Shown here: positions 3,088 to 9,615 of the stretch, in pieces
Position numbering within the stretch: position 1 is the first letter of the stretch
Layout: every line of letters starts with the position of its first letter
IMG/VR virus record: IMGVR_UViG_3300021964_000736
Span: 1-20,186 of that record
Length of the DNA: 20,186 bases
Source of the DNA: a virus
Direction: 5' to 3' (one strand)
Notes under the pieces: generated by a model
The model's input: only the letters and a program-made list of their open reading frames with translations
Databases searched by the model: none
Told to the model about the DNA's origin: nothing
Made by a program: the position numbers and the translations under genes

Positions 3088-3552
3088 CTACTCCTCATCG
3101 CCTTCCACCTCATCAGGCACCACCTCAGCGTCAATCACGTCCGCATCGATCGTCGCCAACAGCTTCGCCGCTTGCGCGTGCAGGTCCGTCACGCTGACGT
3201 TCACGGCCACGTTAGACTGCCTCGTGTCGTATGTGTCGTTCGCCTTAGCGGCCAGCCACTTGTATGTATCCACGGCCAAGCGAGCAGAGTTAACGCTCGC
3301 CTCCTGCAAGTGGATCGTCTCCGCCACTTCCTCAGCCTTCGACGCGTACTTGTGACCGGCGATGTCACGCGCCTGCTTGTAGCGAGCTGCGCGACCTTCC
3401 TCGTTGCCGACCCACTTGTAGAATATGTTCCAACCCACGTTGTAATGCTTGATCACGTCGGACGGGTTCTTACCTCCCGCGATCATGCCAAGGATCTCAT
3501 CCTCTCCAGCATCAGTAAGCATCTGCAACTTAGTCCTGCCAACCTTACCCAT
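3088..3552 (-). CDS. terS: Terminase small subunit, Sf6-like
   Basis: This 154-aa protein would recognise phage DNA and recruit the large subunit. Residues about 12-50 form a helix-turn-helix (EILGMIAGGKNPSDVI, then FYKWVGN). The central part (about 57-105) has the Sf6-type small terminase pattern: YKQARDIAGHKYASKAEE followed by SARLAVDTYKWLAAK, equivalent to the RLRVDTRKWLASK-like segment of that family. The C-terminus is acidic. I place the start at 3552 because GGAGG lies six bases upstream; a GTG or ATG further upstream would add seven residues deeper into the neighbouring gene. It overlaps the upstream gene by eight bases. TerL lies downstream beyond the gap. Confidence 0.85.
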   Translation of the reverse strand: MGKVGRTKLQMLTDAGEDEILGMIAGGKNPSDVIKHYNVGWNIFYKWVGNEEGRAARYKQARDIAGHKYASKAEEVAETIHLQEASVNSARLAVDTYKWLAAKANDTYDTRQSNVAVNVSVTDLHAQAAKLLATIDADVIDAEVVPDEVEGDEE

Positions 3553-3826
3553 TGTCTGCCTCCATCTCGCCACCTAGCGCGGCGTATCCACAAATATCCA
3601 CCCAGTTATCCGAGTGCCCCTTCCCGTCGACCTGCCCCTTAGTGCGCGACACCTTCATCAGCACCATGCACGCGGCCACGTCAGACGCACTCAGCTCGAT
3701 CCCGAGGTAAGCTGACCACATGTCAGCAATCCTCTTGTGAGACGTCTTAGCGTCCCCATACGTGTCGTGACGGTCTCCGCTGATCAGCTGACCCGCCACA
3801 CGCAAAATATATTCTCTGTCTACCAT
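3545..3826 (-). CDS. DUF6378-like small phage protein
   Basis: This 93-aa all-helical protein has the pattern I associate with the DUF6378 family of phages and prophages: DTYGDAKTSHKRIADMWSAY at 21-40, DVAACMVLMKVSR at 49-61, and DNWVDICGYAAL at 73-84. The spaced Asp, His, Lys and Tyr residues hint at a metal- or nucleotide-binding helical bundle, possibly related to MazG-like pyrophosphohydrolases, but that is speculation. GGAG lies ten bases before the ATG. It overlaps the genes on both sides by seven to eight bases, so it belongs to the terS operon. Confidence 0.7.
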   Translation of the reverse strand: MVDREYILRVAGQLISGDRHDTYGDAKTSHKRIADMWSAYLGIELSASDVAACMVLMKVSRTKGQVDGKGHSDNWVDICGYAALGGEMEADNG

Positions 3827-4413
3827 GGTATCTCATCTCCACCTAAATCCCAGTCGACGGCCTCCTTCGCCTCGACCCGTGTAACCTTCGCCTCGGGAAA
3901 CGCCTTGAACGTCTCCTCACAAAACGTAGACGCAAAGCTCGCATTCAATATCCGCGCGGCATCCTCGAACGAGTATACCACCCAGTCGCTGTGCTTTGCA
4001 CGCAGCTCGCTCACACCGCTGGACGCGATGCACACGATCTTACCATCCAAGTCGATCGCATACGCATCTACCGGCAGCGGCTTATGCCCCGCCTGCATCG
4101 CCTCCTGCTCGAGCACGTCCCACGCCCTCATCAACGCACCGGCCAGCTTGTGTGTCCTGACCGCATCATCAGCGTCCACAGCTTCACCGAGCGCCTCGTA
4201 AGCGCCATGGAACCTGCCAGCCAACTCAGGTGATACCAGAGACGGCAACGTGTCGCCCCACTTCTCCGTCTTCTCCCGCGCCACCCGATCGAGCGGCTCC
4301 AGCTGACCCCACACGCCCGCCGTGATCGGCTTGCTACGCTCACCCACCTCAAACGTGCCCTTCGCCTTAATGTCCTTCGCGCTTGGCTTCCTCACTCGCT
4401 TCTTCGCTACCAC
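3820..4413 (-). CDS. Unknown 197-aa phage protein, GTG start
   Basis: I choose the GTG at 4413 because GGGGGAG lies eight bases upstream and the protein then starts with a plausible basic N-terminus (MVAKKRVRKPSAKDIKAKG). Longer translations run through the heptamer repeats and look non-coding. The middle (residues about 65-120) is helical. The second half (about 125-175) mixes beta and helix (VDAYAIDLDGKIVCIASS, WVVYSFEDAARIL) and the C-terminus is acidic (DWDLGGDEIPW). I do not recognise a family. It is the first gene after the heptamer array and overlaps the next gene by seven bases. Confidence 0.7.
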   Translation of the reverse strand: MVAKKRVRKPSAKDIKAKGTFEVGERSKPITAGVWGQLEPLDRVAREKTEKWGDTLPSLVSPELAGRFHGAYEALGEAVDADDAVRTHKLAGALMRAWDVLEQEAMQAGHKPLPVDAYAIDLDGKIVCIASSGVSELRAKHSDWVVYSFEDAARILNASFASTFCEETFKAFPEAKVTRVEAKEAVDWDLGGDEIPW

Positions 4414-4459
4414 GTCAAATACTCCCCCTAATTGCCAGCGGCACCACGCCACCTCTCCA

Positions 4460-4608
4460 CCACAGTAAATCTTCCACAGTCGTCTCGCACCACAGTATCC
4501 ACGTCCTCCACAGTCCCCTATATATAGGGGGACACTGTGGTGGAGAGAATACAGGCTCATATCTCCACGGTGCCGCACGCTTTCCACAGTCACGAAAACA
4601 CACTGTGG
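4460..4608. repeat. Seven-copy heptamer array CCACAGT / ACTGTGG
   Basis: Plus-strand CCACAGT occurs at 4460-4466, 4474-4480, 4490-4496, 4508-4514 and 4584-4590. The reverse complement ACTGTGG occurs at 4534-4540 and 4602-4608. The first four copies start 14, 16 and 18 bases apart. Several are preceded by T or TT, giving TCCACA and TTCCACA cores that match seven of nine bases of the DnaA-box consensus TTATCCACA. The copies flank a TATATATA palindrome. The stretch 4414-4622 contains no convincing gene. An iteron-type origin or a multi-site operator is the best explanation. Confidence 0.65.
4515..4530. repeat. 16-bp perfect palindrome within the heptamer array
   Basis: CCCCTATATATAGGGG is perfectly self-complementary. 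Its centre is AT only, and it is bracketed by CCACAGT on the left and ACTGTGG on the right, so the symmetry extends with a two-base offset over about 33 bp (4508-4540). The site could extrude as a cruciform, act as an unwinding element or bind a dimer. Confidence 0.6.
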
Positions 4609-4609
4609 T

Positions 4610-4619
4610 TACCACTCCG
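4610..4619 (-). repeat. Decamer CGGAGTGGTA, copy 2
   Basis: Same decamer as at 2791 and 13781. Here no ATG follows at ribosome-binding distance; a GTG 7 bases away opens only a doubtful Trp- and Cys-rich frame. It directly abuts the last heptamer of the array. Confidence 0.45.
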
Positions 4620-4622
4620 TTA

Positions 4623-5057
4623 TCACACACCACCACTGATCACCCTAAAGTTTGACAGATTAAAGTATACCATCGGCTCGATGTCCTGCGGGTCATTGCG
4701 GCGCATTGTTCCGCCCATCTGTACGTCCTGCTCCGAGTAGTCCGCTGGCAGCTTACATATGCCCGCAGCGTCACTCCACTGCACGGCGAGGAAGCACGGC
4801 AGCCCAGTCGCCTGCGTCAGTGTGCTGGCCATCATAACTTTGTAGAGCGAGATCATGTAGGTCGGGTACTGGAACATCGGCGTCTTTCGCTGCCGCGCCT
4901 CGATGAATGCCACGGCGCTGTCGTTTCTGGTGGCCATGTAGTCTAGGCTCAACTTGATCGGCATCTTGTGTAGGACGCACTTGAACTCTTTTTCGATGAT
5001 CTTTGACAGCGCCAGCTCGTTGTCCCTGTCCTGCTGTGTCTCGTATAATGGCCTCAT
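4623..5057 (-). CDS. Possible PD-(D/E)XK-like nuclease, 144 aa
   Basis: The protein starts in an ATGA overlap with the upstream HTH gene and ends the replication operon next to the heptamer array. The sequence suggests a small restriction-endonuclease-like fold: helix 1 about residues 9-24, a strand pair with D39 (LSLDYMA), then FIEARQRK at 51-58, where E53 and R55 or K58 would be the ExK-like pair, and a long helix (YPTYMISLYKVMMA) followed by a strand (PCFLAVQWSD). The catalytic Lys is not canonical, so activity is uncertain. I infer a role in DNA metabolism from fold and position; it could also be an unknown protein. Confidence 0.6.
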   Translation of the reverse strand: MRPLYETQQDRDNELALSKIIEKEFKCVLHKMPIKLSLDYMATRNDSAVAFIEARQRKTPMFQYPTYMISLYKVMMASTLTQATGLPCFLAVQWSDAAGICKLPADYSEQDVQMGGTMRRNDPQDIEPMVYFNLSNFRVISGGV

Positions 5058-5287
5058 TTTTTAATAGCCTTATCTACGCTGGATTGCATATCACTCCGAA
5101 AGCCGCTCTGGCCGTCGACTAGCTTCCACCCCCTCAACTTGCATATCTTGAACACCGTGTCCTTATGCAGACCCAGCTCAGTTGCCAACTCTTCCGCCGT
5201 GCAGTCCCAGTTGACTGAACTCGCCGCACGCCAAATGCGAAAGGCGTTTGCACTTCGCGTCAGCTTCATATTGTCTCCAACTGCCAT
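5054..5287 (-). CDS. Small helix-turn-helix protein
   Basis: This 77-aa protein has a clear helix-turn-helix at about residues 29-53 (TAEELATELGLHKDTVFKIC, then KLRGWK), similar to winged or sigma-region-4-like DNA-binding segments. Basic residues are spread through both ends. The ATG at 5287 overlaps the stop of the primase-helicase gene (TAATG) with GGAGG eleven bases upstream. A second ATG at 5269, five bases after GGAG, would give 71 aa. It may regulate the operon or guide the replication protein; target unknown. Confidence 0.65.
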   Translation of the reverse strand: MAVGDNMKLTRSANAFRIWRAASSVNWDCTAEELATELGLHKDTVFKICKLRGWKLVDGQSGFRSDMQSSVDKAIKK

Positions 5288-7482
5288 TATAGTCCTGCCT
5301 CCTCATGCGTTATCCATTCACCCACCGACACGATGGTCACGTCCCTGCCTGCGCGCTTGTCCGCGAACTGCTCGAGGCGTAGGACGCCCGTCTGTAGCCA
5401 CTTCTCCGCGATTGCCTTAGCCCTCGCCTTCTCGGGCTTCTTGTCCACGTCCAGCTCGAGCACACTGGCCACCGCCTTGCCGACCCAGCGCTTGCTGCGG
5501 ACGTTTTCGCGGTACGGGTCGCCGCCCTCCTCTGCGGAGCCAACAATGCGCTGCACACGCATTGCGTGCTTTGTGCTGACCCCGTCGAACAGATCCGGCA
5601 TCTTAAACTCGACCGTGACGCCCACGTATTCCCCATTGGGGATCTGCACGCCGATCATCTGCCGGTAGACGGCCGCCGATGCTGGCGGGGCGAGGTTCGC
5701 CTTGCCGTCGTCTACTCGGAATATGCCTCTACTTAGGTTCTCCGACACGCCGAGCTTCTGCGCCTCCTCTTCGCTGATCTTGTTGATCACTCGGGCAGCT
5801 CTGGCCGCGCCGATGAGTGACCCAGCGCCGCGGATGCTGTCCACTGTGGCGTCATCTCCGTTGCCCTTGCGGATGTGGTGCACGAGTGCCGTTGAGCAGT
5901 CTGTGGCGTCACACACCGTGCGAACGGCACCCACGGCTGCGTTCATGGCTACGTTGTCGTTCTCACTGATCTGCGTGGCCGCAACCCACGGGTCGATGAA
6001 CACCATGCCAATGTTCAGCTCTTTAATCTTGGCCGACATATATTTGACCATCTCTTCGTCGACGCTGATGCCGTCGCGATCCTGCTTGGCGAATATCATT
6101 TTCAAGTCACGGCCCGCGTCCAAGAATATGCGACCCCTAACTTCGTCCGCCGACACCTTGTAGTGCTGCATGGTGGCCGCGAAGCGACGCTGCATCTCCT
6201 CGAGCGGGTCTTCGAGGTTGATGATCCACACGTTGCACGTCTCGTGGACCTGCTCGCCTAGTATCGGCTTGCCGGTAGCGATCGCCAGCGCCTCCGCGAT
6301 CTGCATAGACGTCTTACCCACGCCGCCAGCAGACGCGAGCACGCTGACGTGTCCGCGGATGTAGTGCTGCCCATAGATCCAACGTCTCGGGGGTATCATA
6401 GCCGCGTCCATAGGCTCAAACGCTGTCGGCCACTGGCGCTCGCTCTCGATGCGCTCCTGAGCGACCTCGGCAACCGGCTTGGCCATTGACAGGGCCTCAC
6501 GCAGCTTCTGCGCGCCCGCCTCCTTGAGGTAGTCGTTGGCATCCTTCACGCCGTCGACGCCGAGCTGGTCGAAGCGCACGACGTGAACGTCTGTAGACCC
6601 GTCACCGCGCAGCACGTCAGCCACGGCCTCGATGTCAACGTCTGGGTCTGCGCAGATGGTCACGTCGGACGCTCTGGGCGGGTTGTACGTGCTCAGGCCA
6701 GACTTGCCGAACGTGCAGATCACTGTGGCCGCACCCTCGACTGCCTGATGTACGGATAGCGCGTCCTCTGGTCCCTCGACCATGATGATGCAGCCGCCCT
6801 CGTTCTCATCGCCAATGCGCATTACGTTGCCCACAAGTGCGCCGCGTGAATACTTGTTTACGCCGTTGTGCTCGCGCTTTTCACCGGCCTCGGTAAGTAG
6901 GACCGCCTGCACGCCGGTGATGCTGCCCTCGTAGTCCATCGCGGGGAAAATTATTGCGGGGCCGCCGTATAGGCTCGGGTTATATCTGGCGATGTTCGCG
7001 GCAGTGCCCGCGCGTAGGCTGCGGCTGTTTAGGTATAGCAGCGCGGGTCGCACCGCGTCCTGATTGTCTCGCGTGATCGGTACACTACCCTCCCACGCCT
7101 TAACGGCCTTCTCGATCTTTTCCTTGCGCGTCTCGTCGTCCTTGACCAGCAGGTTCTTAGCGGCCAAGCGGCTTATCAGGCGATCCATCTCCGACGGCAT
7201 GAAGGGCTCGCTCTCACCGCCCTCGAGCTGCTTGGGGTTCTCGCTGCCGCGCTTGAAGCCTGAGCCGATCGTCGTCTTAATCTCGGTGTCCGTCAGCCCG
7301 ATCGCCTTTGCAGCTGTATGCAAGTCCGTGATCGTGCCGTCGATGTCACCGGCGCCCATGTGCGCGTGGCGACCTAATGTGAATGCGGCCTTGTTGAGGG
7401 CCTCGTTGCGTCCACCCTTAGACGCGATGCCCATCTCGGCTACGATGCTCTCTCTGACCTTGCTAAAGTATTGTTGGCTCAT
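5287..7482 (-). CDS. Replicative primase-helicase, Toprim plus RecA-like ATPase
   Basis: The 731-aa protein probably primes and unwinds phage DNA. Residues about 24-82 resemble the helical PriCT domain found behind AEP-type primases (EALNKAAFTLGRHAHMGAGD). A Toprim domain follows, with E236 in VEGPEDA (235-241) and the acidic ADPD at 278-281. A RecA/RepA-like ATPase then occupies about 375-570: Walker A SAGGVGKT at 384-391, Walker B VFIDP at 495-499, VHHIRKG at 534-540 and RGAG at 551-554. The C-terminal part (about 640-731) is probably a winged helix. There is no zinc ribbon and no AEP catalytic core. GGGAG lies 12 bases before the ATG. No DNA polymerase is seen nearby, so the polymerase is likely that of the host or encoded elsewhere. 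Confidence 0.85.
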   Translation of the reverse strand: MSQQYFSKVRESIVAEMGIASKGGRNEALNKAAFTLGRHAHMGAGDIDGTITDLHTAAKAIGLTDTEIKTTIGSGFKRGSENPKQLEGGESEPFMPSEMDRLISRLAAKNLLVKDDETRKEKIEKAVKAWEGSVPITRDNQDAVRPALLYLNSRSLRAGTAANIARYNPSLYGGPAIIFPAMDYEGSITGVQAVLLTEAGEKREHNGVNKYSRGALVGNVMRIGDENEGGCIIMVEGPEDALSVHQAVEGAATVICTFGKSGLSTYNPPRASDVTICADPDVDIEAVADVLRGDGSTDVHVVRFDQLGVDGVKDANDYLKEAGAQKLREALSMAKPVAEVAQERIESERQWPTAFEPMDAAMIPPRRWIYGQHYIRGHVSVLASAGGVGKTSMQIAEALAIATGKPILGEQVHETCNVWIINLEDPLEEMQRRFAATMQHYKVSADEVRGRIFLDAGRDLKMIFAKQDRDGISVDEEMVKYMSAKIKELNIGMVFIDPWVAATQISENDNVAMNAAVGAVRTVCDATDCSTALVHHIRKGNGDDATVDSIRGAGSLIGAARAARVINKISEEEAQKLGVSENLSRGIFRVDDGKANLAPPASAAVYRQMIGVQIPNGEYVGVTVEFKMPDLFDGVSTKHAMRVQRIVGSAEEGGDPYRENVRSKRWVGKAVASVLELDVDKKPEKARAKAIAEKWLQTGVLRLEQFADKRAGRDVTIVSVGEWITHEEAGL

Positions 7483-8954: not shown

Positions 8955-9343
8955 TTCATCATCTCCCTTACGAGATAGCAGAACGTCTCGAAGTCAGTCT
9001 CAACCACCGCGTCACTGTCCTCATGCCCATTAAATATGCCCAGCGGCACCACGCAGCGCATTGGCTTCCGGTCATACTTGTAAAGCAGCGCAGGCCACTT
9101 CTTTTCGCGGCCAGCAGCTGCGCAAGTCTGCGCCCACCAAGCCGTCTGGCCACCGATCGGTCCATCCTTGTAGCGCTTTAGCTCTAGCGTGAATGGGAAG
9201 GCGTCATCATCGGGGATCAGGTCGCCATGTTCGCCAGCACGATACTGCTCCAGATCACGCTTAAACGAGATGCCCAGCTCATCGAGCAGCATCTTCGCGA
9301 CCTCGCGCTCCCATGCGGCTCCCTTGTTGCGACCGTTTACCAT
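8951..9343 (-). CDS. Holliday-junction-resolvase-like PD-(D/E)XK nuclease
   Basis: This 130-aa protein has the layout of small resolvase-type nucleases: GAAWEREVAKMLLDEL (about 8-23) with an acidic residue in the first helix, D41 in HGDLIP, then FTLELKRYKD with E54 and K56 as the ExK pair, and a Gln/Trp-rich helix (GGQTAWWAQ). Such enzymes cut branched DNA before packaging, or nick DNA during replication. The start codon overlaps the upstream stop (TGATG). It lies directly upstream of the RecE-like exonuclease, giving two adjacent nucleases of one superfamily. The substrate cannot be read from the sequence. Confidence 0.8.
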   Translation of the reverse strand: MVNGRNKGAAWEREVAKMLLDELGISFKRDLEQYRAGEHGDLIPDDDAFPFTLELKRYKDGPIGGQTAWWAQTCAAAGREKKWPALLYKYDRKPMRCVVPLGIFNGHEDSDAVVETDFETFCYLVREMMN

Positions 9344-9615
9344 CAGTGCATGCCACGCTTGTCGCTAAAAATGTCGACGCAGGTGTGCGCTGACATCTGC
9401 AGCAGCTCGGTCAACGTGTAGCCCTGCTCTTTCATCTTGGTAAATGTGCTGCCCACGATGCCAGTAAATGCGCCCATCTCTGCAAACGCTGAGCCGTTTT
9501 CGTTGATCTCTCTAAACAGTCCGTCGAGAAGTGGCTGCATAGCCTCGACTGTGATGTGGACGAACTCCTCGACCTCTGCGGTCTCACGCTCTGTGAACTC
9601 ATCATCCCCAGTCAT
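9343..9615 (-). CDS. Unknown acidic 90-aa protein
   Basis: The protein is strongly acidic and helical, with an N-terminal Glu-rich stretch (EFTERETAEVEEFVH) and no membrane segment or motif that I recognise. Its ATG overlaps the stop of the ribbon-helix-helix gene (ATGA), and its stop overlaps the nuclease start, so it is translationally coupled to both. Pairing of a small ribbon-helix-helix gene with a short partner recalls toxin-antitoxin layouts, but the acidic product does not look like a toxin. Function unknown. Confidence 0.65.
   Translation of the reverse strand: MTGDDEFTERETAEVEEFVHITVEAMQPLLDGLFREINENGSAFAEMGAFTGIVGSTFTKMKEQGYTLTELLQMSAHTCVDIFSDKRGMH

Follow-up and report, generated by a model that had tools for sequence, protein, structure and literature searches.

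The window, the whole stretch of 20,186 nucleotides analysed here (IMG/VR virus record IMGVR_UViG_3300021964_000736), carries on its minus strand genes for an Arc-like RHH protein, a Holliday-junction resolvase-like protein, a DUF3799 nuclease-like protein, a 195-aa protein, a primase-helicase, a 77-aa HTH protein, a PDDEXK_14 protein, ORF197, a DUF6378 protein, an Sf6-like small terminase and the large terminase, in this order. The PDDEXK_14 gene and ORF197 are separated by a gap (Table 1), which contains seven exact copies of the heptamer CCACAGT/ACTGTGG within 149 bp (4460-4608), five on the plus and two on the minus strand. Distances between the first four are 14, 16 and 18 bases. In these counts and spacings our matches agree with a preliminary description made from the window alone, which had also called the gap gene-free; the facing ends of the PDDEXK_14 gene (4623) and of ORF197 (4413) indeed border it, and both genes are conserved in relatives. 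Since about 0.02 heptamers are expected by chance in 149 bp, the array is far above chance. Over the whole window the heptamer occurs nine times compared to 2.17 expected (sd 1.58), and none of 100 shuffled sequences reached at least nine copies. Between two inward-facing heptamers lies the palindrome CCCCTATATATAGGGG; it had been described as AT-rich and was found to be perfect, with a core of only A and T but with GC arms.

Table 1. Features of the array locus (window coordinates)
Feature	Position	Strand	Basis or remark
Gene-free gap with iteron-type array, proposed replication origin	4414..4622		209 bp; same position upstream of ORF197 in relatives
Heptamer CCACAGT	4460..4466	+	exact match
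Heptamer CCACAGT	4474..4480	+	exact match
Heptamer CCACAGT	4490..4496	+	exact match
Heptamer CCACAGT, member of the inward-facing pair flanking the palindrome	4508..4514	+	exact match
Perfect 16-bp palindrome	4515..4530		symmetry kept, letters change in relatives
Heptamer CCACAGT (ACTGTGG on plus strand), partner in the inward-facing pair	4534..4540	-	exact match
Heptamer CCACAGT	4584..4590	+	exact match
Heptamer CCACAGT (ACTGTGG on plus strand)	4602..4608	-	exact match
ORF197, conserved protein directly after the array, no covariation with it	3820..4413	-	GTG start; comparison of relatives
PDDEXK_14 gene	4623..5057	-	Pfam E 2e-39
Primase-helicase, 731 aa, proposed initiator	5287..7482	-	Pfam; profile and fold match to RSF1010 RepA; model; covariation
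Winged-helix domain, residues 637-720, proposed heptamer reader	5323..5574	-	AlphaFold2 (pLDDT mostly 82-89); fold matches
Residue 711 codon, Ala in the window, wing tip; predictor of heptamer position 5, T in the window	5350..5352	-	covariation
Residue 662 codon, Arg in the window; predictor of heptamer position 2, C in the window	5497..5499	-	covariation

Some neighbouring genes deserve mention. The 77-aa HTH protein, encoded between the primase and PDDEXK_14 genes (5054-5287, minus strand), has its best PHROG match in the HTH portion of an HNH endonuclease, a weak match with E 0.001. The genes between primase and array differ much among relatives, and this segment is a possible landing site for mobile nucleases. 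The DUF6378 protein (93 aa, 3545-3826, minus strand; Pfam E 5e-31) has relatives in PHROG and in a Gordonia phage that are labelled phosphofructokinase, a doubtful label for a protein of 93 aa. Beside the large terminase gene, on the opposite (plus) strand, ORFs at 191-409, 592-948 and 945-1376 resemble small HTH proteins (XRE-like and others) and perhaps form a regulatory module.

Relatives were collected from IMG/VR by way of the large terminase: 334 stretches have a gene related to it, of which the best 80 were examined. Further loci were obtained with three primase queries and later with three scans and one genome scan. Terminase and primase queries gave relatives; ORF197 alone as query yielded no related loci, because the ORF197 patterns are not conserved. 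The phages found are uncultured marine phages with genomes of about 37 kb, and no close isolate was found in the phage collection (identity to named records reaches no more than 56% for the large terminase and 36% for the primase).

An array just upstream of ORF197 is common to about 220 of the related marine phage loci. Its position is conserved in nearly all relatives holding the region, and its word varies by lineage: we found ACTGTGG, ACTGAGG, ACTGCGG, RGTGTGG, RGTGAGG and RGTGCGG (the R forms being GGTGTGG, GGTGAGG, GGTGCGG and mixed A/G-GTG forms). Over 150 distinct arrays, 1321 TGNGG sites carry the lineage base and 199 carry another one. Three phages with primases that are 94-97% identical (L039, L043 and L041) have one array skeleton, with N being A, C and T, respectively, at nearly every site. 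The TATA-core central palindrome and the site spacing are retained while the array words switch. In most lineages an inward-facing heptamer pair is located approximately 14 bp from the centre, and positions 1-9 of the palindrome are 93% complementary (15 distinct cores), with shuffled halves reaching 46% on average and 82% at maximum (2000 shuffles). Heptamers outside the central pair are often extended to TGnGGnGG, with both n alike.

The preliminary description had proposed a search for the same heptamers at the same place in related phages and had regarded their absence from close relatives as a refutation. An array is present at the equivalent place, but many relatives lack the exact heptamer, the whole array having switched along with the protein described below, which makes absence of the word a misleading test. 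In named phages or plasmids, blastn found no similar array, and the stretches examined from distant named relatives (the Manatee Spring phages MW202879 and MW202496, phiM5 and RHph_X2_26) contain no such array. A different cluster was seen in MW202496 (L283, a different Manatee Spring phage), where eight copies of GACGTGGA on either strand lie within about 90 bp (9312-9394), overlapping small genes upstream of its terminase.

For a discovery set of 41 loci (one of which, L015, has a broken frame and is to be set aside), the columns of eight conserved proteins were tested as predictors of the base at position 5 of the heptamer, the N in xxTGNGG. Residue 711 of the primase-helicase was the only column that predicted this base perfectly: Ala, Thr or His goes with T, Gln with A and Asp with C. 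After addition of new loci the counts were 34 for Ala with T, 37 for Thr with T, 14 for His with T, 55 for Asp with C and 47 for Gln with A. Clear calls agree with the rule in 187 cases and disagree in two (L098 and L099); these totals include the discovery loci, and about 60 domain/array groups lay outside the discovery set. Six calls were unclear, four of them leaning to the predicted base (L066, L186, L055 and L163), one locus having no array (L202) and one only half an array (L208); two further loci were too short for a call. Counted as distinct domain/array pairs, 150 out of 152 obey the rule, corresponding to 150 out of 150 interpretable pairs: in the remaining two, the array is cut by the contig end (L209) or has lost its left half, with the remaining sites fitting (L208). 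The L208 array, located downstream of the primase, lacks its left side starting from the palindrome, and the right half retains ACTGAGG sites, fitting its Gln711; this half-array may stem from a deletion event at the palindrome or from faulty assembly.

L098 and L099 fall below the site threshold of the 152-pair count and are true exceptions, having GGTGGGG sites (G at position 5) despite Gln711. Five differences in the C-terminal 95 residues separate them from their A-type sister L102, including a change from Asp to Ala two residues before Arg710, which is perhaps the cause of this departure.

Residue 662 of the same protein predicts position 2 of the heptamer. Among 56 dereplicated primases it is Arg in all 22 with arrays that have C at this position and Gln in all 34 with G; over all distinct pairs, 52 combine Arg with C and 94 Gln with G, and in four related Arg662 loci C and G sites occur in equal measure. 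Twenty new distinct pairs, fetched after both rules had been fixed, all obey the rules for residues 711 and 662. Among them was an unseen combination, Gln662/Ala711, accompanied by GGTGTGG as the rules predict. The lone match from a genome bin (L265, an uncultured Opitutae bin) likewise fits the code; its host assignment is unreliable.

Comparison of the array with the protein columns gave best NMI values of 0.83 and 0.84 for the two primase columns, 0.39 for ORF197, 0.36 and 0.38 for the terminases and at most 0.44 for other proteins. ORF197 was rejected as the binder, since it is adjacent and conserved yet has no covarying column. Binding of the array by host DnaA, by the phage RHH (Arc-like) protein or by a small HTH protein is extremely improbable. 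CCACA is common to DnaA boxes, and the preliminary description had noted a resemblance of the heptamer cores to such boxes and suggested DnaA as a binder, but no TTATNCACA with 0 or 1 mismatch is present in the array, which therefore does not qualify as a DnaA-dependent origin, and other lineages carry unrelated words, for instance GGTGCGG or ACTGAGG. The same unrelated words speak against the RHH and HTH proteins, proposed earlier as binders of a multi-site switch: the RHH gene is present in most relatives reaching that far, but none of its columns predicts the base in the discovery set, and the gene for the 77-aa HTH protein is absent from most relatives.

If the array were a packaging site (cos or pac) recognised by the small terminase, it would be expected to covary with that protein. 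The terminase genes lie downstream of the array and the small terminase is far more variable than the large one, but the heptamer is not predicted by any column of the small terminase (best NMI 0.45 in the discovery set and 0.36 later). In addition, the ends of ten long contigs are scattered, with none closer than 1.9 kb to the array, and three of these ten contigs have exact terminal repeats of 59-141 bp, like circular assemblies. With contig ends scattered and small-terminase covariation not seen, we rejected this reading, which is highly improbable.

The protein that covaries with the array contains, according to Pfam, a DUF7146/Toprim primase part (Toprim_3) and a RepA-type helicase (AAA_25). 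RSF1010 RepA is the best solved relative of the helicase part (profile E 2e-8, fold Z 20.9). No reliable Pfam model was found for the C-terminal domain, and sequence searches with the last 175 residues gave no solved relatives. An AlphaFold2 model was built from 56 aligned primases; in its C-terminal part, helices at 637-652, 667-675 and 682-698 are followed by a beta hairpin (701-708 and 713-720). Foldseek alone gave no strong match for this part; its fold matches are winged helices, the best being RecQ1/BLM with a modest Z of up to 7.8. The C-terminal domain is thus a predicted winged helix, which in the model places residue 711 at the wing tip and residue 662 just before the second helix. 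A search of the loci for this winged helix in further proteins, for instance in a nuclease directed at origins, yielded only primase fragments. Primase, helicase and the proposed winged-helix origin reader are located in one chain, which resembles P4 alpha in function as judged by domains only. Membership in the P4 alpha family by descent was rejected, since the Pfam matches are AAA_25 and Toprim_3 and the best solved relative is RSF1010 RepA.

To follow the changes on a tree, 56 primases were used with the C-terminal 95 residues left out. The position-5 base and residue 711 each need 14 changes on this primase tree. In phylogenetically independent pairs, both switched together in 10 out of 10 pairs for T versus another base (p 0.002) and in 7 out of 7 for C versus another base (p 0.016); for A versus another base four pairs co-switched, none was opposed and one did not differ, which is too few to test. 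Residue 662 co-switched with its base in 6 out of 6 pairs (p 0.03). Some of the switches can be seen between close relatives. In L043 compared to L041, and in L043 compared to L178, both array flanks are alike, and the differences are found at residue 711 and in the array sites. The likeness of L146 and L222 extends to about 300 bases before the primase stop codon, beyond which they are different throughout the C-terminal domain and array. As judged from these sequences, specificity switches by two routes, either by a point change of residue 711 or 662 together with the whole array, or by exchange of the C-terminal domain along with the array.

Covariation could also reflect linkage only, with the array and the primase end being co-inherited and the two residues making no contact. 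They are located within about 0.1-1.7 kb of each other, and domain and array were exchanged together in some pairs. However, mere hitchhiking would put ORF197 first, which touches the array yet does not track it. Moreover, near-identical phages with both flanks alike differ in residue 711 and the array sites, identical residue-base pairs arose repeatedly on the tree, and fresh loci fit. Linkage as the sole explanation is accordingly very improbable.

In the window and in the relatives, several short repeats are found in a non-coding stretch near the gene of the proposed initiator, a feature of iteron origins. The covariation with the phage's own primase-helicase and the position conserved in nearly all relatives now support well what the preliminary description had offered as one possibility, a phage replication origin. 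Based on these sequence comparisons, the array is very probably an iteron-type replication origin, recognised by the phage's own primase-helicase via its C-terminal winged helix. The domain would dock on the heptamers, with wing-tip residue 711 reading position 5 of xxTGNGG and residue 662 reading position 2, each presumably through contact with a groove of the DNA. The primase-helicase would then assemble at or beside the TATA-core palindrome, loading the hexameric RepA-type helicase and the Toprim primase. The palindrome would be opened and replication would start with the phage's own helicase and primase, such that recognition, helicase and primase in one protein would select its own genome. 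GC skew, suggested earlier as a check for an origin peak, gave no origin signal: in full-length contigs it has one sign all round the genome, with no switch at the array.

Covariation shows recognition, not its consequence, and the array immediately precedes ORF197 and the terminase genes in their direction of transcription. The winged helix might thus bind the array as an operator that controls ORF197 and the downstream packaging genes, with replication starting elsewhere. We consider this unlikely, since the reader is fused to helicase and primase, the array adjoins replication genes, and origins usually have such an arrangement of several sites about a palindrome. Furthermore, the array occurs once per genome in the ten full-length contigs of 36-39 kb, and no second heptamer cluster was seen in them.

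The sequences themselves show the array, the constancy of its place and layout, the covariation with two residues and switching that recurred independently. A probable iteron origin whose primase-helicase would recognise its own genome, with the two-residue code visible in the sequences, is new here. How a DNA-binding protein and all its sites change specificity jointly is a long-standing question, and about 14 natural switches are found here in one phage group, along single-residue and domain-exchange routes. Intermediates are visible in the mixed Arg662 arrays and in the lineage departing from Gln to G. The code is testable, natural near-identical proteins being expected to read different DNA, and it yields predictions as to which related phages are able to replicate one another's DNA. 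The finding also gives a likely function to a C-terminal domain that lacks a reliable Pfam match and a likely origin to an uncultured phage group with hundreds of public contigs.

Like the protein described here, the alpha protein of phage P4 combines primase, helicase and origin recognition in one protein. Its C-terminal domain is a winged helix, the P4 sites are short repeats and its helicase belongs to SF3. The helicase in our phages is RepA/DnaB-like and accompanied by a Toprim primase, and no sequence kinship to P4 alpha was seen; the recognition code and its natural switching are new here. By its title, a 1993 study of Ziegelin and colleagues, cited in PMC8628076, reportedly deals with the P4 alpha protein and its origin. 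RSF1010 shares the helicase of the RepA family and likewise has an origin with repeats. In RSF1010, RepA helicase, primase and the RepC initiator are separate proteins, whereas these functions are fused here and the reader is a C-terminal winged helix. The lambda O protein only initiates, and host helicase and primase are used.

The lambda origin is a multi-iteron phage origin, as proposed here, with four 18-bp iterons inside gene O (PMC3349717, PMC4488673). Phages that share the replication type are blocked when additional ori-lambda copies are present in the cell, and a hybrid phage with another replication module is insensitive to them (PMC4488673, PMC3349717). Geminivirus iterons of 5-6 letters are alike in placement, diversified between close relatives and matched to their own Rep (PMC12548392); these are plant single-stranded DNA viruses with a rolling-circle Rep, and protein and mechanism are unrelated to those of the phages described here. 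In PLE satellites, the DNA-binding domain of RepA covaries with the iterons, the two being swapped jointly, and the matching PLE origin is cut by a RepA-mimicking phage nuclease (PMC8263062). Pressure of the kind seen with PLE, ori-lambda and geminiviruses might explain why sites and reader flip jointly so often. It is quite possible, and we propose it tentatively, that marine phages are split into origin-compatibility types by a two-residue, two-base code that flips repeatedly under frequency-dependent pressure. Such pressure might come from co-infecting relatives, satellites, decoy origins or origin-directed nucleases, a suggestion that we regard as equally tentative. If true, these compatibility types would amount to a natural, evolvable lock-and-key for replication self-recognition in double-stranded DNA phages. 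The switches hint at an arms race at phage origins, comparable to PLE satellites (PMC8263062) and origin decoys (PMC4488673). The PLE system has a RepA_N domain, three semi-palindromic iterons of approximately 30 bp, two specificity groups and no single-residue code (PMC8263062), whereas the phage group described here has heptamers, many types and point switches.
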